Part shown: piece by piece, positions 2,393 through 18,003 of the stretch
Numbering within the stretch: the first letter of the stretch is position 1
Layout: each line of letters starts with the position of its first letter
Origin: a virus
Length of the DNA stretch: 20,337 bases
Strand: one strand, 5' to 3'
IMG/VR virus record: IMGVR_UViG_3300035670_001477
Location: 1 to 20,337 of that record
Notes under the pieces: generated by a model
The model's database searches: none
Told to the model about the DNA's origin: nothing
What the model saw: only the letters and a program-made list of their open reading frames with translations
Position numbers and translations under genes: made by a program

Positions 2393-2637
2393 CGGATGTC
2401 TGGAACTTTGAGGGTCGGATTCATCTCGCGCAGCGACCTTGCGAACATCTCAAGGCGCTCGCGGTCAAGCTTGTGTCGGTCCTCGATGTATTGACGCAGG
2501 CCTCCGACCGCAAACTCGACTTGCAGCAGACGAGACTGGATGACTAGCGCGCCGCCGACAATCGAAACGATGAGCGATAACGGCATGACTGCGTCGCGCA
2601 AGTTGATCTGCCCGCGTTGGTCAGGTTGGCCCATCAT
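2389..2637 (-). CDS. Small membrane protein with one TM and a coiled coil (82 aa), holin-like candidate
   Basis: Two adjacent ATGs (2637 and 2634) can start this gene; both touch the previous TGA. After a polar N-terminus, residues 17-34 (VMPLSLIVSIVGGALVIQ) form a transmembrane helix, followed by a charged coiled-coil-like segment (RQYIEDRHKLDRERLEMFAR). A single TM with a long charged C-terminal helix fits small phage holins and also inner-membrane spanin subunits. It is the first of three membrane-associated genes in a row, with a lysin about 1.5 kb further on, so a lysis role is plausible. No family can be named with certainty. The end overlaps the next gene as ATGA (2392-2389). Confidence 0.6.
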   Translation of the reverse strand: MMGQPDQRGQINLRDAVMPLSLIVSIVGGALVIQSRLLQVEFAVGGLRQYIEDRHKLDRERLEMFARSLREMNPTLKVPDIR

Positions 2638-2888
2638 GCGACTCCGAACGTAAGTACGTCGCCGAGGTCGAACGTGTAGGTGCTTTGCAGCCCGTTGAGT
2701 TGATCGACAGCCATCTGCTTGAGAACTTCGACTACGTCTGGAGATAGCTCGTTGTAGGCAGCGACGTATCCGACTTCGCCTGTGAGGATCCCTTCTACGG
2801 TCTCCGTCAGTTCGTAGTCGACGCAGTATTCCACGTCGCTGCCCGATAGCTGCATATGCGGCGTCTTGAATAGGATCTTCGGGTTCAT
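2634..2888 (-). CDS. Small acidic hypothetical protein (84 aa)
   Basis: I do not recognise this protein. It starts MNPKILFKTPHMQLSGSDVE and is acidic, with predicted beta strands at both ends and a helix around ELSPDVVEVLKQMAVDQLNG. No signal peptide, transmembrane segment or metal motif is seen. The ATG at 2888-2886 overlaps the fibre stop (ATGA), so I prefer it to the longer ORF that begins at 2918. Its own stop (2636-2634) overlaps the start of the membrane protein downstream. Position between fibre and lysis-region genes suggests either a fibre-assembly helper or a tip accessory protein, but that is only context. Confidence 0.6.
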   Translation of the reverse strand: MNPKILFKTPHMQLSGSDVEYCVDYELTETVEGILTGEVGYVAAYNELSPDVVEVLKQMAVDQLNGLQSTYTFDLGDVLTFGVA

Positions 2889-4414
2889 AGCTGTTGCGCC
2901 ACCTGGCGAATCTGCCAAGAGAACAGTTGCAGCGTCTGCGTCGCCGTCGCTGTGCTGCTGCGTGCGCGCAGTTCAATCGTCTGCGTGCCAGTCAGGTTGC
3001 TGGCCGTCGTGTTGAACGAATGGCGCACCGTCGATGTGGCGATGCTGTTGGCTGTGTTGGCACCAGCAACTGCGTTGCGCTGCGCATACAGGGTGGCACC
3101 AGCGTTGGATGTGCTGGCCACTGCAAAGATGCCCTTGACGCGGAAGGTAGCTCGGTTGGTTGCGCCAGTGGGGATCGTCGTGCCGTCGATGGCTTCCAGC
3201 GTGAAGCTGCCTAGTGCGATCTGCCAACGGTAGGTAGCCGTCGCGCCGCTGTTGTTGAGCAGCGTCCCGTAGGCTTCGATTTCGAACGAGTCGCCCGCCG
3301 TGACCGTCACGCTCTTGCTGACCAAAGCCGTGTAGCTAGTGACGTTGATCGCCGTGTTGCTCATCGGAGCATTGGCAAACGCGATCGAACTGCTACCGCT
3401 GGCCAGCGTGTCCCACTTTGCCGAGGTGTCGCTTGTGGCCACAAGCACCTGCCCAGCCGTAGGTGCTGGGCTGGACGAGATCTCGACGATGGTCGTGTCC
3501 GTTCGCAGGCCGCTCGCTGTGCGATCGTCGCTCAGGCGCGAGTCGTCGCCGATGCACACCGTGCTGCTCGATGTGCCCGTTGCGATGCGAGCGATGCCGA
3601 GCGTGCCGGTCGTGACGTGCGATGCATCGAGCGACGTCCAGGATTGATCGCCTCGCAGATACGTCGACGCGCTCGCCGTTCCGCTGCTCGCGAGCCGGCT
3701 CGTCGGGATCAGGTTCTGCACGTCATTTGTTCTGCCCGGCCCCATGACGAGCAGCTCGCCCGTGCTCGCGTGCACGCGGACGACTCGCCCGATGTTCTGG
3801 ATGAGGTCAGTCGTGCCCGTCGGCCTGGTCGGCGTCAGGCCGCCGCCGACGGCGACGTAGGCCGTGCCGTTGACCAAATACGCCGAGGTGTCAAGGCCGC
3901 GCACCATTCCAAGCGGCACTGCGAAACCTTCGTCGTTGTGCAGCAGCGTCTGTTCGAGAACGCCGATTGCCGGCATCGTCGCCGCGTTGCCGGCATCGGC
4001 GCCGGCGACTTCAGTCGCGGCAGATGCGCCAACCGATCCGGTCGCATAGACCGGTGTGCCGACGGTCAGCGTGCCGCCGCTGGTGTTCTTGACCGGAAAC
4101 CGGGTCGCCTCGATGTGCTGCCAGGTCGAATCGCCGCGCAAAAACGTCGAGTCGTCGCGCGTGCCGGTCGCGTCGATCGTCCAGACGGTGCCGCTGCTCG
4201 AGACGACCACGTCGCCTTTGTCCCCGTCAGTAACGCCACCGCCGCCTCCGAGGTCGTCGACGCGCGCAATGTCGCCGGCTCTCGCTCGCAAAACCGTCTC
4301 GCCACCGTTGCCGCCGACCAGCACAATCTGATCGCCGTCGATGACGCGAGCCGTGCCCGCGACGACGTAGACCGTGCCGGTCGTGACGGTGTTTCCGAGA
4401 CGATCCAGCGCCAT
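2885..4414 (-). CDS. Tail fibre / receptor-binding candidate (509 aa)
   Basis: The protein is modular and low in charge. Residues 1-50 form a small beta domain; a Gly run (56-60) leads into the fibre motif VTDGDKGDVVVSSSGTVWTI (61-80). Two short units with the same core occur: FLRGDSTW (91-98) and YLRGDQSWTSLDASHVTTGT (252-271), typical of trimeric phage fibre stalks. From about residue 350 a jelly-roll-like C-terminal domain is rich in Thr/Ser/Ala and ends WQIRQVAQQL. It follows the tip protein genes and precedes the lysis region, the usual fibre place. The ATG at 4414 overlaps the previous TAA. The C-terminal domain is the best candidate for receptor contact; the sugar or protein recognised cannot be read from sequence. 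Confidence 0.7.
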   Translation of the reverse strand: MALDRLGNTVTTGTVYVVAGTARVIDGDQIVLVGGNGGETVLRARAGDIARVDDLGGGGGVTDGDKGDVVVSSSGTVWTIDATGTRDDSTFLRGDSTWQHIEATRFPVKNTSGGTLTVGTPVYATGSVGASAATEVAGADAGNAATMPAIGVLEQTLLHNDEGFAVPLGMVRGLDTSAYLVNGTAYVAVGGGLTPTRPTGTTDLIQNIGRVVRVHASTGELLVMGPGRTNDVQNLIPTSRLASSGTASASTYLRGDQSWTSLDASHVTTGTLGIARIATGTSSSTVCIGDDSRLSDDRTASGLRTDTTIVEISSSPAPTAGQVLVATSDTSAKWDTLASGSSSIAFANAPMSNTAINVTSYTALVSKSVTVTAGDSFEIEAYGTLLNNSGATATYRWQIALGSFTLEAIDGTTIPTGATNRATFRVKGIFAVASTSNAGATLYAQRNAVAGANTANSIATSTVRHSFNTTASNLTGTQTIELRARSSTATATQTLQLFSWQIRQVAQQL

Positions 4415-11959: not shown

Positions 11960-14184
11960 CAGCTCGCCGCCCTTTGGATCGCGCTTCGGAAGCTTGAGCG
12001 CGTTTCCATGGTGTTGGTGATGATCCCGCGCAGCGTGCTCTGCTGCTCAAGCAGCGCCCGCTGCACATCTCGCGAGTCCATCGCTTGGATATTAATCGAG
12101 ACCTGCGTGCCCGTTTGCGCGCCGCCGCCCACGAAGGAGACCGGGATGCTGCGGTTATCCGGCAGAGGCACGAAGGCCTCGGCGGTATTGCCCTCGCCGA
12201 AAAGCGCCATGGTCGGCCGGCGAGCGATGCCGCCTCGCGCAAACGCGCGGACCGGCGCCGTGCTTGTCAAGTTGCCCGGCAGAATGCCGCCGGATTCCAT
12301 CGCCGGACCGCCGAACAGCGACGAGACGATCTTCGTCGCGAGCAGTTTCGCGGCGATGCGCGCGATCTCCTGCAGGACTACAATTGCGAAGTCGCGGAAG
12401 GCCTGCGCGGCACTCTTGGTGCCGGTGATGATATCCGTAAAGGCGTCCGTTAGGCCGTCGCCGATGCTGTTGACGAGCTGCGCGCCGGCTTCGCGGCCGG
12501 CTGCGGTTAGGTCCGTGAGCTGCCGCACGGATTCGCGCGCGCCCTCTTGGAATCCGCCCCAGAAGTCGCCGCCGGTCACAAGCTGCTTTAGCCGTTCCTG
12601 CCGCGTGTTGAGTAGCGCCAGGACCTCGGCGTATTCCTCGGCCGAGATCTTGCCCTCGTTAAAGATCTCCTCGAGCTGCAGCTTGTCGGACTCAACGGCC
12701 AAGACGCGGATCGCTTGCTCGTTTTCGCGAAGCGCGGCGATCTGCTGCTGCACGGCTAGCGTCTCTTTCTGCGTCGCCAGCGCGTCGGAGCGAGAGACCG
12801 TCGGCGCCTGCTGCCCTCGCGTCGAACGGAAGACCGAGGAGATCTGCGAGCCGACCTGGCGCGCGTAATCGGAGAGCGATGCCAGCGACGGCAGACCGAG
12901 CGCCGGCACGCCGTTGGTCTTCGGGTCGTTTGCCGGCGCGGCGGCCTGTTGCTGGACGACCTGCTGCGTCGCTGCGGCTTCGCGCCGGATTGCATCGGCC
13001 GCCGCGTCGCTTTGCTCGGCGATCTCTCGCTTCAGGTCTCGCAGGCGCTGCGCCACGCTGCCCGTTTGCTCGAGTTGCCGTTTGGCCTGCTCTTGCAGCA
13101 GGATGGTCTGCTGCGTCTCGGCGAGCTCGTCGCGAATGTCCTGGACGTTGCGGCCTCCGCGCAGGCCGGCGCCCGTTGGACCCAGCACGGTGTTAAGGCG
13201 CGTGCGCTTTTCGTAGAGACGTCCGAGGAGTTGGTCGATCTCGACAATCCGGCGCTTGTCTTCGTCCGAGATCAGGTTAACGCCGGGGATCTCGTCGATG
13301 AGGTCGATCAGGCCGATAATCGCGTCGACCGCCGCCGAGACGGCCGTCACTACCAGTGTGCCGATGGCCTTTGCGAAGTCCGCGACCGCTTGTCGATTGT
13401 TGGCAATCAGCCGCGCAAGACGGTCAAGATAGCCTGCGACCTCTGGCCCAAATGCCTGCAGCAACGACCGGCCGACCGAGTCGGTCGCAATACTGAGCTT
13501 GTCGAGCGCGTCGCCGACGGCGGCCGCTGCGACGGCTTGTTCTTGTGTCAGTGTTGCGCCGATATCGCGCACGTCGGCGATGTTCTGCTGGAATTGTGCG
13601 ACGCCCTGCCCAATTGCCGGCAGGAGCTCCAAGAATTGCTTAGGGACGACCTTGCCCAGCGCGACGGCTTTGTCTTGCTCGGTGTTGTATTGCTCGAGGC
13701 CGGCCGACATTTGCTCGAACAGCGCCGAAGGCGCCAGATTGCGGAGCTCGTCGAGGGTGATCCCAAGATCCTCGAAGCCGGCGACGACCTGCCGATTGCC
13801 GTCCAGCGCTTGGCGCTGCGCTTTGGCGAGCGCGAGCACGGTGCCCTCGAAGGCGTCGCCGTTGATGCCCGAGAGCTTAAACGCGGCCTGCAGCTCGGAG
13901 AGATTCTCGACCAAGTCGCCGGTTGCGGTTGCGAGATCCTGCAGGTCGCCAGCCTGCTCGGCAGTCTCTCGTGCGAACTGCGCGAACTTGATCGCGCCGA
14001 ACGCGAGGCCGACGCCGGCGAGCGCGGTCTTCACGTTGAAGAGCGCGCCCTTCAGGTTTTGGAAGGATCGCACGGACACCAGCGCGAAACGGCCGATGCT
14101 GCGCTCGAGCGCGTTTAGGTCGCCTTTGATGTAGTTGCGGAGCCGAGCCTCAATCGAGAGCGTGCGTTTTTCAGATCGTGCCAT
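11959..14184 (-). CDS. Tape measure protein
   Basis: At 741 aa this is the second longest protein here. It has long Ala/Gln/Leu-rich helices with coiled-coil character, a hydrophobic stretch near residues 52-68, a second near 271-298 (TLVVTAVSAAVDAIIGLIDL) and a Gln/Ala-rich linker near 400-420. The C-terminal part has the common tape measure ending: AFRDFAIVVLQEIARIAAKL, then GGIARRPTMALFGEGNTAEA followed by FVPLP. The protein sets tail length and may enter the cell envelope during DNA ejection. Start ATG 14184 has AAGGAG at 14198-14193 with an 8-base spacer; that site overlaps the TAA of the upstream extension. The stop overlaps the next start (ATGA, 11959). Identity is secure from size, composition, ending and position. 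Confidence 0.92.
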   Translation of the reverse strand: MARSEKRTLSIEARLRNYIKGDLNALERSIGRFALVSVRSFQNLKGALFNVKTALAGVGLAFGAIKFAQFARETAEQAGDLQDLATATGDLVENLSELQAAFKLSGINGDAFEGTVLALAKAQRQALDGNRQVVAGFEDLGITLDELRNLAPSALFEQMSAGLEQYNTEQDKAVALGKVVPKQFLELLPAIGQGVAQFQQNIADVRDIGATLTQEQAVAAAAVGDALDKLSIATDSVGRSLLQAFGPEVAGYLDRLARLIANNRQAVADFAKAIGTLVVTAVSAAVDAIIGLIDLIDEIPGVNLISDEDKRRIVEIDQLLGRLYEKRTRLNTVLGPTGAGLRGGRNVQDIRDELAETQQTILLQEQAKRQLEQTGSVAQRLRDLKREIAEQSDAAADAIRREAAATQQVVQQQAAAPANDPKTNGVPALGLPSLASLSDYARQVGSQISSVFRSTRGQQAPTVSRSDALATQKETLAVQQQIAALRENEQAIRVLAVESDKLQLEEIFNEGKISAEEYAEVLALLNTRQERLKQLVTGGDFWGGFQEGARESVRQLTDLTAAGREAGAQLVNSIGDGLTDAFTDIITGTKSAAQAFRDFAIVVLQEIARIAAKLLATKIVSSLFGGPAMESGGILPGNLTSTAPVRAFARGGIARRPTMALFGEGNTAEAFVPLPDNRSIPVSFVGGGAQTGTQVSINIQAMDSRDVQRALLEQQSTLRGIITNTMETRSSFRSAIQRAAS

Positions 14185-14196
14185 GGTCTGCGCTCC

Positions 14197-14613
14197 TTAT
14201 TTTTTGGCCTGCTGCTGCGCCATGCGTCGATGCACGCCGCGCCAGTGTTCGATCTCCTGCATGATTAGCGGCCATGCCTGGGTAAAGGTCGCGGCCTGGT
14301 CTTGCCATCCGCCGGAGTCCGGCATAACGCCATTCTCGACAAGCGCGGCCGCCGTGATCGCATGCAGCTCGCGCTGCGAGACCAGAGCATTTGGGCAGCG
14401 GTGAATGCCGACGCGATTCGTTCCTTGGCAATGCACGCACGAGTCGTCTCGACCACCGCAGAACGGGCAAGGGTCGATCCATGCGATCGGCTCGGGGGTT
14501 GCCGCGTCGCATCCCCACTCGCGTCGTTTCGCCTGGTCGTGCTTGCATTGTGTGCATGACATTTCGAATCCAGAGCCGCGCGGCGCGAGCGCGACGACGG
14601 CGGCCAGGATCAG
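14197..14613 (-). CDS. gpT-like extension made by -1 frameshift: eight-cysteine zinc-ribbon-like domain
   Basis: This is the -1 frame after the slippery site. Slippage gives the chaperone's 132 residues plus 138 more (about 270 aa, spanning 15008-14197). The extension begins LILAAVVALAPRGSGFEMSC and contains eight cysteines in CxxC-type groups: SCTQC, a lone Cys after REW, PCPFCGG, CVHCQG and RCP, enough for two zinc sites. The C-terminal half is helical (WRGVHRRMAQQQAKK). Lambda gpT, the counterpart, is about 144 aa and joins gpG by the same kind of shift. A separate start at ATG 14562 (121 aa) is possible and a GGA lies upstream of it, so independent translation is not excluded. The TAA stop overlaps the tape measure Shine-Dalgarno. 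Zinc binding is inferred from spacing only. Confidence 0.72.
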   Translation of the reverse strand: MILAAVVALAPRGSGFEMSCTQCKHDQAKRREWGCDAATPEPIAWIDPCPFCGGRDDSCVHCQGTNRVGIHRCPNALVSQRELHAITAAALVENGVMPDSGGWQDQAATFTQAWPLIMQEIEHWRGVHRRMAQQQAKK

Positions 14614-15008
14614 TTTTTTACGTCGTCGGTCGTGAGCTCGTTTCCGCGCATGATTGCGAGCGCGATCTCGGTCGCGTCCTCGACGCCGAGTCGATTTACC
14701 GAGGCCTCGCTTGCCGACACGGGGAGACCGATGCCGCAAACGGTCGCCGGCGCGGCATCGAGCGCGAACGGGACCTGCGCCCCGTCTGCGTCCAGAAAGT
14801 TAGTCCAGCCGGCGATGCCGGCGCGGAGCGCGACAGTCATCCACGAGCCGATTGCGGCGTCCTCGCCTTCGCGAAGGTCGCGCAATCGGAGCATGATTAC
14901 CGTCGGCAGGCGCCGCAAATGGAACGTCGTCTGCTGCGCCTTTGGCAAGGCGCGGTCGTTCGAGACGACAAAGTCAAAGGTCTCTTTGGTGCTGCGTGCA
15001 ATAGGCAT
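14610..15008 (-). CDS. Tail assembly chaperone, gpG-like (zero-frame product)
   Basis: A 132-aa protein beginning MPIARSTKETFDFVVSNDRA. The pattern of beta strands, 'R-x-LP-x-x-x-QTTF-x-L-R' and a helical C-terminal half is that of siphophage tail assembly chaperones, which coat the tape measure before tube polymerisation. It lies between tail tube and tape measure, the fixed position of gpG. An in-frame ATG at 15053 would overlap the tail tube gene by 29 bases; I prefer 15008 because the upstream residues are not chaperone-like. Neither start has a good Shine-Dalgarno. The last sense codons GTA AAA AAC precede TGA and contain an exact -1 slippery heptamer, so a second, longer product is expected. 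Confidence 0.75.
   Translation of the reverse strand: MPIARSTKETFDFVVSNDRALPKAQQTTFHLRRLPTVIMLRLRDLREGEDAAIGSWMTVALRAGIAGWTNFLDADGAQVPFALDAAPATVCGIGLPVSASEASVNRLGVEDATEIALAIMRGNELTTDDVKN
14613..14619 (-). promoter_or_regulatory. Programmed -1 ribosomal frameshift site A AAA AAC
   Basis: On the minus strand the zero frame reads GTA AAA AAC TGA; the heptamer A-AAA-AAC is in the exact X-XXY-YYZ phase and touches the stop codon. The -1 frame is open for 138 further codons. About seven bases downstream, GGCCGC (14605-14600) can pair with GCGGCU (14579-14574) around a 20-base loop, a plausible stimulatory hairpin at the usual distance. Position between tail tube and tape measure matches the lambda G/GT system, so this is very likely functional. 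Confidence 0.85.
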
Positions 15009-15024: not shown

Positions 15025-16455
15025 CTAGATCTGGGTAAAGTAGATCTCGTCATCGCCGCTTTCGTTAATGCGGCGAGGCCGGACCGTGACGTCGAACGTC
15101 GCGATGCCGTCGGAGTCGCCGAGCTGGACCTCGGTAACCTGGCAGACCGGAGCGACGATCGTCATCACGTTTCCGGGGGTCGTTCCCAGCACAAAGCCGA
15201 CGCGCATCGTCGCGCCGCTGTTGCGGATCGCTTCCCAGTCAAACCCTCCGTGGATCGCGTCGACGGTGATCGTAAACGCCGGATCGCGGTCGGTGATGTT
15301 GGAGCCCGTCGCGCCGCCGGCGCGGTTTGCGTCCAGGTTCGGGTTGACGGTGTTGCCCTGCGCGAAGCTCACGCGCTTCGTCGGAATGCGCAGGCTCGCC
15401 GATCCGTAGCCGTAAACGCAGAACGCGCCGAGCAGACGCGGCGGACGAATGGTCGAGAGGCCCGACGTCGTCACGGCCGGCGCGTCGACGGTTGTCCCAA
15501 TGTCGCCCGAGAACGTCCAGGAGAACTGCATAGGCTGCCCGACCTCGCCTTCGAGCGTGAAGTCGCCGCGCGCGCCGAGCAGATCGCGCTGCCGGCCGTC
15601 GAGGTTGTGCCGAATGGTCAGGGACGGCGTAAGCGATTGCGCGGCCGTCGTGATGGTCGTCGTCGACGTGCCGTCGGCAGCGCGTAGCGTGTAGGTCGCG
15701 AGCGCGGTGCCATAGAGCAGAGAGGCCGAGAAGTCCGTCATCGTCGAGCCATTGTCGACGAGGAGCTGCATCGCGCCGATCGTCGTGCCGACCGGGTTTT
15801 CGATCGTCACGACAGCGCCGGCGGCAGGCGCCGTGCCCGTCCAAGATGCGGCCGTGACCGCGATGGATTTCGTCGACGTCGGTTTGCAGACAATGCCGGG
15901 AGCTGATGCTGCTGCGCTGGCAGTCGAAGTCGATGCCGTAGATGCGCCGGTCGTTAGAGCCGCGGTAAACGTGCCCGTGACGTTTGCGACGACGAGCACG
16001 TTGCCCAGTGTTGATGCGACATGCTGCGGCACGCCGGAGACACCGGCGGAGTAGATGCCGACGATGACGCCGACAATCGTGCCGCTGCTCTGCGTGACCT
16101 GCTCGCCGAGCTGGAATCCGATACCGGTCACGGCGCCGAGCACCAAGACCTGCGCGGTTGCCTCGCTATAACCAGACGCAAAAAGCAGCTTTTGCCAATC
16201 GGGAGCGGCGACCGGAATCGTAGCGTCGCCGCTGCCGCGGAAGTCGCTGCGGAAAGTCACGGTGCGCGTCTGCCGGCCCACCGGTGCAAAGTCGCGCGAA
16301 AGCGACGCGCCGGACGGCACGCGGTCCAGGACGTCGATGCTATCCGAGAGCGCGGGATCGAAGACGAGGATCGCGTCCGAGCCCGCCGGCGAGGCCGACG
16401 TGCCCTCGGAGGTTTCGACTTTCGCGAGGAGCTGTTGCTTGCGGTTGACGGGCAT
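15025..16455 (-). CDS. Major tail tube protein with inserted domain
   Basis: A 476-aa protein. The outer parts match phage tail tube proteins: the N-terminus starts VNRKQQLLAKVETSEGTSA, followed by a beta segment with RTVTFRSDFRGSG, and a later GARGDFTLEGEVGQPMQFSW strand pair typical of tube subunits. Between about residues 100 and 185 there is a Val/Gly/Thr/Ser-rich segment with the pattern 'F-x-x-GE-x-V-x-x-x-SG-x-x-V-G-x-[IV]' ending in a run of Thr/Ser/Ala, which looks like an inserted or surface domain. Tube proteins of many siphophages are about 200-350 aa, so this one is long. The start at 16455 has an AGGAAAA Shine-Dalgarno just after the previous TAG. It lies between terminator and chaperone genes, as expected. 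Confidence 0.75.
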   Translation of the reverse strand: MPVNRKQQLLAKVETSEGTSASPAGSDAILVFDPALSDSIDVLDRVPSGASLSRDFAPVGRQTRTVTFRSDFRGSGDATIPVAAPDWQKLLFASGYSEATAQVLVLGAVTGIGFQLGEQVTQSSGTIVGVIVGIYSAGVSGVPQHVASTLGNVLVVANVTGTFTAALTTGASTASTSTASAAASAPGIVCKPTSTKSIAVTAASWTGTAPAAGAVVTIENPVGTTIGAMQLLVDNGSTMTDFSASLLYGTALATYTLRAADGTSTTTITTAAQSLTPSLTIRHNLDGRQRDLLGARGDFTLEGEVGQPMQFSWTFSGDIGTTVDAPAVTTSGLSTIRPPRLLGAFCVYGYGSASLRIPTKRVSFAQGNTVNPNLDANRAGGATGSNITDRDPAFTITVDAIHGGFDWEAIRNSGATMRVGFVLGTTPGNVMTIVAPVCQVTEVQLGDSDGIATFDVTVRPRRINESGDDEIYFTQI

Positions 16456-16463
16456 GGGTTTTC

Positions 16464-16811
16464 CTAGCTATGCGCGAGCATTTCGTCGAACTCCGCCGAG
16501 ATGCTCGCACTCGCGGCCGAGGTCCAGTTAACAGATGGCGCGGAATGGTAGCGAAGCCAGACGACCTCGCCGGTCCGCGGAAGGGTGTAGGCGAACGTCT
16601 CGAACGGATGCTCGCGGTAGTGCCTGCGGATCGCGTCCGCCGTGGCGCCATAGCTATCGCGCCACGAGAACAGAAAGCGACGCGGCGCGAGCTGCGGGTC
16701 CGGCGTGCGAGTCATCAGCAGATTGCCAGACGCGCTTTGCATGCGTGCCTGCATGATCTGCATCGAGACGCCGGACGGGCGTGGCAGCGACGTTGCGGCA
16801 GTGTCGGCCAT
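16464..16811 (-). CDS. Minor tail module protein (115 aa), unknown role
   Basis: Start ATG at 16811 overlaps the tail-terminator TGA. The N-terminal 45 residues are polar. Residues 45-112 form a compact domain: RRFLFSWRDSYGATADAIRRHY, then FETFAYTLPRTGEVV, and an acidic end (SAEFDEML). A similar arrangement is seen at the C-terminus of the 607-aa tail-tip protein encoded at 10136-11959 (RQFSLQW, FRFRP, VRVAELI), so the two may share a tail domain. The domain is also reminiscent of small M-like or DUF2460-like tail proteins. It is encoded immediately before the tail tube. I cannot assign a precise function. Confidence 0.5.
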   Translation of the reverse strand: MADTAATSLPRPSGVSMQIMQARMQSASGNLLMTRTPDPQLAPRRFLFSWRDSYGATADAIRRHYREHPFETFAYTLPRTGEVVWLRYHSAPSVNWTSAASASISAEFDEMLAHS

Positions 16812-17254
16812 CAGATCGTCGGGTCCTGGTAGTCGTGCCGGTAGCGGAATTGCAGACGCACTACGGCCTGCAGCTCGTTCTGCTCGTCAGGGTCCGAGAC
16901 CTCGTGCCCAAGGACGACGGCTTCGGTGTAGTCGGGGTCGAGTCCCCACGAGTCGGGGTCGTGCACTTTGCGCTCGACCTCGACGACCATCCGGTCGAGG
17001 TAGCGGTAGGGATTGCCGTCGTCGAGCGCTGCGTCGGCGTCCTCGCTGCGCACGGTCAGCAGCACGCCGACCTGCATCGTCGCCTGGTAGGTCTCGTTCG
17101 TCGCGATCGTCTTGTCCTCGGACGCGAAGAAAACGACCGCACGGACGGACGCGTCGCCGTAGTTAACGGCGCCGCGGAGTTGCGAGCTCCAGCCGGCAAT
17201 CGAGCCGAGGCGCGTAACAAAGGCGCCGAGGATCTGGTCGCGGATGCTGCCCAT
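16811..17254 (-). CDS. Probable tail terminator protein
   Basis: A 147-aa protein beginning MGSIRDQILGAFVTRLGSIAG, the typical start of gpU-like tail terminators: an N-terminal helix with 'R..I...L...L..i'. It then shows beta strands around VRAVVFFASEDKTIA and YQATMQVGVLLTVR, an acidic loop rich in Asp, and a closing beta strand (QAVVRLQFRYRHDY). Tail terminators cap the head-proximal end of the tail tube and stop polymerisation. An in-frame extension to 17395 exists, but the start at 17254 is preferred: its ATG overlaps the previous TGA (ATGA) and the extension is only an Arg-rich shadow of the previous gene. The stop overlaps the next ATG (16811-16809). Family call by pattern and by position upstream of the tail tube. 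Confidence 0.6.
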   Translation of the reverse strand: MGSIRDQILGAFVTRLGSIAGWSSQLRGAVNYGDASVRAVVFFASEDKTIATNETYQATMQVGVLLTVRSEDADAALDDGNPYRYLDRMVVEVERKVHDPDSWGLDPDYTEAVVLGHEVSDPDEQNELQAVVRLQFRYRHDYQDPTI

Positions 17255-18003
17255 CAGGTGCGACCCTTTCGCCAATCGGCGAACATCCCGTCGGCGGCTT
17301 CGGCAAAGCGCTGGTCGCGCTGCTGCTCGAGAGCGTCCCAAGCCGCGTAGAATTGAAGGAGCGGATTCATTTCCACCGTCTTGGTCAGGATCCACCGCAG
17401 GCGGCGCTTTCGCGCGACGATCCTGCGCGGGCCGCCGCGGCCCGGCTCCGGCTTGCTCTCGTATCTGGTCGTCTGCTCGTAGACGAGTCGGTTGCTGTTG
17501 CGCTTGCTCGGCACGGTCACGAGCTTTTTTCCTGGGTAGCGGGCTCGAAATGCCGAGATTGTCGCCGGCCGGGTGCGGATCGGGACGGCCATGTAGCGGG
17601 CGCTCTTAATGTCCTCGCCCTCTTCGTGGATCCGCAGAATGTCGTTGCCCGTGTAAATGTCGCCGCGGATCTCGGGGATGAGACGGTCGGCCTCTTCGCG
17701 GGTGCGCGCGGTCCGTTGGATCGGCAGGACCTGGTAGGAGACCTGGTTCGGGTTCGGAGGCGTGCCGCCGAACTGCACGTTGGTCACGTTAATCGGTTCG
17801 CCCCGTTGTCCCGTGCCGCCGCGTCCAAATCGGTTGCCCTTGCGTGCGAGCCAGCCTTTGCGGTGGTCGAGCAGCGTCAGGTAGTTAAAGCGCCGGAGAT
17901 GAAAGTAGGCGCTGCGCGGTGCCAGGATCAGGTAGCGCAGAGCCTCCGTCGTGTCGACCGTCACGCTAAAGCCGGTCGCCCCGTCTTTGAGCCCGGCGCG
18001 CAT
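17254..18003 (-). CDS. Putative neck / tail-completion protein (249 aa)
   Basis: I do not recognise a specific family. The protein is strongly basic, especially residues 45-75 (KGWLARKGNRFGRGGTG) and a later Arg/Lys cluster (GGPRRIVARKRRLRW). It ends with an aromatic helix carrying a WDAL motif and a FADWRKGRT tail. That ending (a 'FYAAWDAL...RF..AAD' helix) resembles C-termini of tail-completion or neck proteins that follow head closure in many siphophages. Its place between head closure and tail terminator fits such a job. At 249 residues it is larger than typical HK97 gp10-type proteins. The ATG at 18003 overlaps the previous TAA by one base; the TGA at 17256-17254 overlaps the next ATG. 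Confidence 0.45.
   Translation of the reverse strand: MRAGLKDGATGFSVTVDTTEALRYLILAPRSAYFHLRRFNYLTLLDHRKGWLARKGNRFGRGGTGQRGEPINVTNVQFGGTPPNPNQVSYQVLPIQRTARTREEADRLIPEIRGDIYTGNDILRIHEEGEDIKSARYMAVPIRTRPATISAFRARYPGKKLVTVPSKRNSNRLVYEQTTRYESKPEPGRGGPRRIVARKRRLRWILTKTVEMNPLLQFYAAWDALEQQRDQRFAEAADGMFADWRKGRT

Follow-up and report, generated by a model that had tools for sequence, protein, structure and literature searches.

A probable programmed -1 ribosomal frameshift joining G-like and T-like tail assembly chaperone parts in an uncultured phage

The tail chaperone locus and its overlapping frames

The window, the whole stretch of DNA analysed here, is a 20,337-base uncultured virus record with its structural genes on the minus strand. 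Upstream of the chaperone locus, Pfam and PHROG matches identified a Mu gpT-like major capsid protein and a tail terminator-like protein; a head-tail attachment-like protein scored just below its Pfam cut-off. To judge by its position, the ORF immediately preceding the G-like ORF probably encodes the major tail (tube) protein; the tape measure gene lies on the other side of the locus (Table 1). This order is the standard one for a G/GT locus. The virion genes of 476, 115 and 249 aa (window 15025-18003, minus strand), including the putative tail tube gene, had no match to any Pfam or PHROG family. Because several virion genes lack such a match, the phage group is poorly represented in these libraries.

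Protein searches recovered relatives of the G-like ORF with 46-99% identity. No significant Pfam or PHROG family was found for G, and a PDB sequence search with the G profile returned nothing. Chaperone families are numerous and have diverged widely, so the missing curated-family match does not exclude G from the chaperones. Modelled with AlphaFold2 (mean pLDDT 86), G resembles tail assembly chaperones of solved structure at moderate scores (Z 5-7). Its best matches among solved structures were 3KLU (YqbN, Z 6.6), 3FGX (Z 5.7) and the HK97 tail assembly chaperone 2OB9 (Z 5.3). With 3KLU and 2OB9 the likeness is one of modelled fold, at ~10% identity to G and with no detectable sequence relationship; by Foldseek alone, 2OB9 ranked third at E 3.7. 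In the viral structure library, the named matches of the G model were mostly tail assembly chaperones, including the CcrColossus pre-tape-measure chaperone. Searches of cultured phages by tblastn with the G proteins of the window and of relative L040 gave no match, and two scans of cellular genome contigs found no relatives, hence no prophage or host link.

The 3' end of the G-like ORF (15008-14610, minus strand) reads GAC GAC GTA AAA AAC TGA, positions 14621-14610 being GTA AAA AAC TGA in the zero frame. The heptamer A AAA AAC (14619-14613) is therefore in phase, and its last base adjoins the stop codon (14612-14610). The -1 frame is open from 14613 to a stop at 14199-14197, a distance of 138 codons, and ends 12 bases before the tape measure gene, whose ATG is at 14184. 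A GC-rich stem (14605-14600 with 14579-14574) can form after a 7-nt spacer. A preliminary description of this DNA had reported the in-phase heptamer abutting the zero-frame stop, the 138-codon -1 frame leading to the tape measure gene and a GGCCGC/GCGGCU stem about seven bases downstream, and all three were borne out by the sequence.

The letters AAAAAAC by themselves mean little as evidence, because 0.63 occurrences would be expected in the window by chance and one was found. The in-phase motif is rare. Given the codon usage of the window, an in-phase X XXY YYZ heptamer (Y = A or T) has a chance of ~0.00055 per codon position, and that of one adjoining a given stop is ~0.0005; only three such heptamers were found in the 11 window genes tested. 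The heptamer also uses codons that this 65% GC phage avoids, GTA accounting for 4% of Val codons and AAA for 27% of Lys codons. Elsewhere in the window, an in-phase A AAA AAG lies at 17524-17530 on the minus strand, inside the 249-aa ORF (18003-17254) and 267 nt before its stop, and may be a chance occurrence.

Table 1. Coordinates of the tail chaperone locus and of its sequence elements in the window
Feature	Position	Strand	Basis
476-aa ORF upstream of G, probably major tail (tube) protein	15025..16455	-	gene order as in RcDurkin and phiCbK
G-like ORF of 132 aa, counterpart of gpG (short tail assembly chaperone), ending ...DDVKN stop	14610..15008	-	open frame, relatives, fold
Slippery heptamer A AAA AAC, in phase	14613..14619	-	sequence; in-phase X XXY YYZ in relatives
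Zero-frame stop TGA, adjoining the last base of the heptamer	14610..14612	-	sequence
T-like -1 frame, 138 aa, Cys-rich, proposed GT fusion part	14197..14613	-	third-position changes; conserved residues
Leader LILAAVVALAPRGSGFE, specific to the -1 frame, almost invariant in nucleotide sequence	14563..14613	-	fourfold sites
5' stem arm GGCCGC	14600..14605	-	folding consensus and pair counts; pairs retained or replaced by G-U
3' stem arm GCGGCT	14574..14579	-	consensus fold and pair count
Outer stem arm (possible), with partner 14607-14611; weaker, conserved in only part of the relatives	14567..14571	-	
Internal ATG of T, at T codon 18; could be a separate start, though only in the clade of the window	14560..14562	-	start-codon comparison
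Tail tape measure protein, 741 aa	11959..14184	-	PHROG tape measure families, best E 8e-17; PF09718 above cut-off

Conservation of the heptamer and of the downstream RNA

Close and distant relatives were found by protein searches of viral contigs with G and T. Close relatives of the window keep AAAAAAC-TGA. An in-phase X XXY YYZ heptamer is kept in seven of the nine relative lineages whose discovery depended on protein similarity alone (identity of 46-86% for G or 29-86% for T), as A AAA AAC in five (L011, L036, L038, L023 and L024) and as G GGA AAC in two (L012 and L028). The zero-frame stop adjoins the heptamer in most relatives, and follows one codon later in L024 and six codons later in L023. 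Retention of the heptamer in homologues was one of the checks proposed in the preliminary description, and it came out in favour of the frameshift in these seven lineages, L027 and L029 having only looser sites.

The two forms of the heptamer have the X XXY YYZ pattern in common but differ in letters and in encoded residues (KN vs GN). Because the pattern is common to both forms and the letters and residues are not, the replacement suggests that slippage, not the protein, is what selection has maintained. With the residues fixed, a slippery pattern has a synonymous chance of 0.01-0.07 per lineage under the codon usage of the window; multiplied over the eight independently found lineages (the window and the seven relatives with a strict heptamer), and ignoring shared ancestry, these chances are of the order of 1e-12. 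In all eight the heptamer ends in AAC, never in AAG. Four further lineages (L039, L040, L047 and L048) were added by a DNA-pattern search that used the signal itself, and were left out of the heptamer evidence.

The distant relatives L027 and L029 are without a strict X XXY YYZ heptamer. L027 has G GGG GAG TGA in the right phase, with a GTG overlapping the G stop (L027 2097-2839), and in L029 a correctly phased G GAA AAG precedes the G stop by a few codons (L029 2010-2905). These sequences resemble the looser patterns named 'five' and 'twofour' in the PRFect paper (PMC10885494), and are candidate slip sites only. Reinitiation is a possible route of T expression in L027, because the GTG overlaps the stop there.

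Beyond the heptamer, the leader is nearly frozen at synonymous positions. Among the protein-found relatives only, fourfold-degenerate sites in the first 13 T codons differ in 9.4% of comparisons vs 51.7% elsewhere (permutation p 2e-5); with L039 and L040 added and the search-pattern codons excluded, the values are 29% vs 52% (p 0.017). In 9/9 sequences the core pairs of the GC-rich stem, 7 nt downstream of the heptamer, are either retained or replaced by G-U, and sliding the stem partner by 1-3 columns halved the number of paired cells or worse. No compensatory (both-side) changes were seen in the stem pairs of these nine sequences, and scans near the site for Rfam families, promoters and terminators found nothing. 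The case for an RNA element rests on conservation, because the folding energies of the stem were not significantly below those of shuffled sequences. A stimulatory downstream stem is likely, not proven.

The Cys-rich -1 frame and alternative routes to its expression

The pattern of substitution indicates that the -1 frame is coding. When the window is compared with its close relatives, most changes in T are at third positions of this frame (20/29 with L007 and 39/57 with L011). Conserved residues include eight cysteines (C20, C23, C35, C49, C52, C59, C62 and C73) and the motifs WGCDA, RCPN and GGWxDQ. C20, C23, C35 and C73 form a wider core that is widely kept, and the second set (C49, C52, C59 and C62) is absent from L028 and from the cultured phage RcDurkin. 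The domain is probably zinc-binding, the two Cys sets suggesting one core zinc site and one optional second site. T had no significant Pfam or PHROG match, its model (mean pLDDT 74, a modest confidence) found no fold match in structure searches, and this Cys-rich domain is listed in no library searched.

In one contig (L010, 3300016665_000251), positions 1-330 carry a stretch resembling the end of a tRNA and the beginning of a purD-like gene, which are fused to T at GCCGCCGTCGTCGCGCTCGCG. A second contig from the same metagenome (L004, 3300016665_000189) ends at the same spot, and the junction is probably an assembly chimera at this shared word.

The window by itself would also allow T to be a separate gene, with G stopping at TGA and T starting at ATG 14562 from its own ribosome site or by reinitiation. 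This in-frame ATG, just before the first Cys codon, is present at T codon 18 in the window, L007 and L011, and the GTG that overlaps the G stop in L027 could serve similarly. However, the ATG is absent from L012, L036, L038, L039, L040 and L047. The open T frame of L039 was found to have no ATG, GTG or TTG before T codon 66; from the heptamer, L036 and L040 have none up to T codons 28 and 41, respectively, earlier ones lying only well inside G. Because a usable T start codon is absent from these relatives, their full T should hardly be producible except via G. In addition, relatives conserve the 17 codons between the stop and the ATG as coding sequence of the -1 frame, and retention of the heptamer would lack a reason if T were a gene of its own. 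We therefore regard separate initiation as very improbable.

Transcriptional slippage on the A6 run, adding or removing a base in some mRNAs, would yield the fusion with no ribosomal slippage. The six-A run that it calls for is present, but six A residues are short for polymerase slippage, and L012 and L028 have GGGAAAC, with runs of only three, at the same place. We give this explanation slightly less credence still. Frame changes at homopolymers are a common error, but the negligible possibility of a sequencing or assembly error, or of a decayed fused gene, is already refuted by the sequences of the relatives, the same frame break occurring in independent contigs from many metagenomes, in divergent lineages and in cultured RcDurkin, where A AAA AAG is in phase.

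The ribosomal frameshift is thus the reading that we favour. The sequences themselves show that the signal is present and conserved, that the -1 frame is coding and that several relatives lack a T start codon.

Known frameshift systems and a model for the site

The locus resembles the gpG/gpGT system of phage lambda, the ratio and roles of whose products are summarized in PMC5009743. Both have the order tail protein, G, -1 T and tape measure; as in lambda, a -1 shift at a heptamer close to the 3' end of G would give the window a long as well as a short product from a single start. Unlike lambda, which uses G GGA AAG, the window has A AAA AAC; its stop abuts the heptamer, its T is Cys-rich and its G is without a Pfam or PHROG match. 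In the Caulobacter phages phiCbK and Colossus, the pre-tape-measure chaperones have AAAAAAC and GGGAAAC (PMC3556154), exactly the two heptamers of the family of the window, and phiCbK reads A AAA AAC TAA, with an abutting stop, although its T part has no significant similarity to that of the window. The g-t genes of the haloarchaeal viruses HCTV-1 and HCTV-2 use G_GGA_AAC and A_AAA_AAC (PMC5009743); the likeness here is of the heptamers as published, and the hosts are archaeal.

There are also two cultured relatives. Rhodobacter phage RcDurkin gp42/gp43 (MW677511) was reached by a very weak tblastn match (E 4), and its -1 frame gave a 38.6-bit profile match to the T model. It has an in-phase heptamer and a -1 frame with C..C, GC, RCP and GILPxPGGLxQQ, but the heptamer is A AAA AAG, the stop follows ~28 codons later and there are four Cys vs eight in the T of the window. 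In the deposited annotation gp42 is a 'tail assembly chaperone', gp43 is 'hypothetical' and no frameshift is given. Given its in-phase A AAA AAG and the homology of its -1 frame, the region 2492-3384 of this genome (L051, MW677511.1) probably encodes a frameshift fusion that the annotation overlooks. In Sinorhizobium phage phi3LM21 (L050, MF614628.1, 11655-12160) the chaperone gp40 ends GCA AAA AAC GAC TGA, the -1 frame continues into gp41 and to the tape measure gene, and the capsid gene is related to that of the window; its T is short and of unrelated sequence. Again, gp40 and gp41 are annotated as two genes. The prediction that ordinary annotation would report two genes at such a site is thus matched by both deposited genomes.

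We conclude that the site is very probably a programmed -1 ribosomal frameshift of the lambda G/GT kind. The proposal that a -1 frameshift joins G-like and T-like chaperone parts, made in the preliminary description, is strongly supported by the conservation and position of the signal, the loss of the start codon in relatives and the modelled fold of G. Most ribosomes would read GTA AAA AAC and stop at TGA, releasing the 132-aa G-like chaperone. A minority would be slowed by the GC-rich stem 7 nt downstream and slip back one base on A AAA AAC, AAA and AAC re-pairing as AAA and AAA. These ribosomes would read through T to give a fusion of ~270 aa (...DDVKN-LILAAVV...). The predicted role of G is to coat the tape measure protein, and that of GT is to bring in tail tube subunits via its Cys-rich, probably zinc-binding T domain. 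Lambda is the model from which we infer that slippage occurs, how often it does so and what G and GT do.

The preliminary description also held that A AAA AAC is more efficient than the G GGA AAG of lambda and could give more of the long product. This claim is unsupported for bacteria, and the E. coli data are contrary to it: A_AAA_AAC shifts far less readily than A_AAA_AAG, and G_GGA_AAG shifts very readily (reviewed in PMC5009743). On mammalian ribosomes A_AAA_AAC is among the most shifty heptamers (PMC5009743). Frameshifting of 6-7% was measured for two phage tail chaperone genes in GeneTack-based experiments (PMC3711429), which for this site would be a fair guess at the order of magnitude only.

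This kind of frameshift is well known and common in phages, and the chaperone family is not covered by the libraries searched. The locus thus adds a divergent tail assembly chaperone family unlisted in those sequence libraries, and the natural replacement of A AAA AAC by G GGA AAC suggests that the slippery pattern itself is under selection. The order of G, a -1 T with Cys pairs and tape measure provides a simple guide for correcting the annotation of split fusions, including those of two deposited phage genomes. A speculative and rather unlikely extension is that the AAC-ending heptamers are matched to host lysine and asparagine tRNAs that favour an AAC slip codon in the bacterium, with T as a new two-module zinc-binding chaperone domain. 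The constancy of the AAC ending raises a testable question about the tRNAs of the host.
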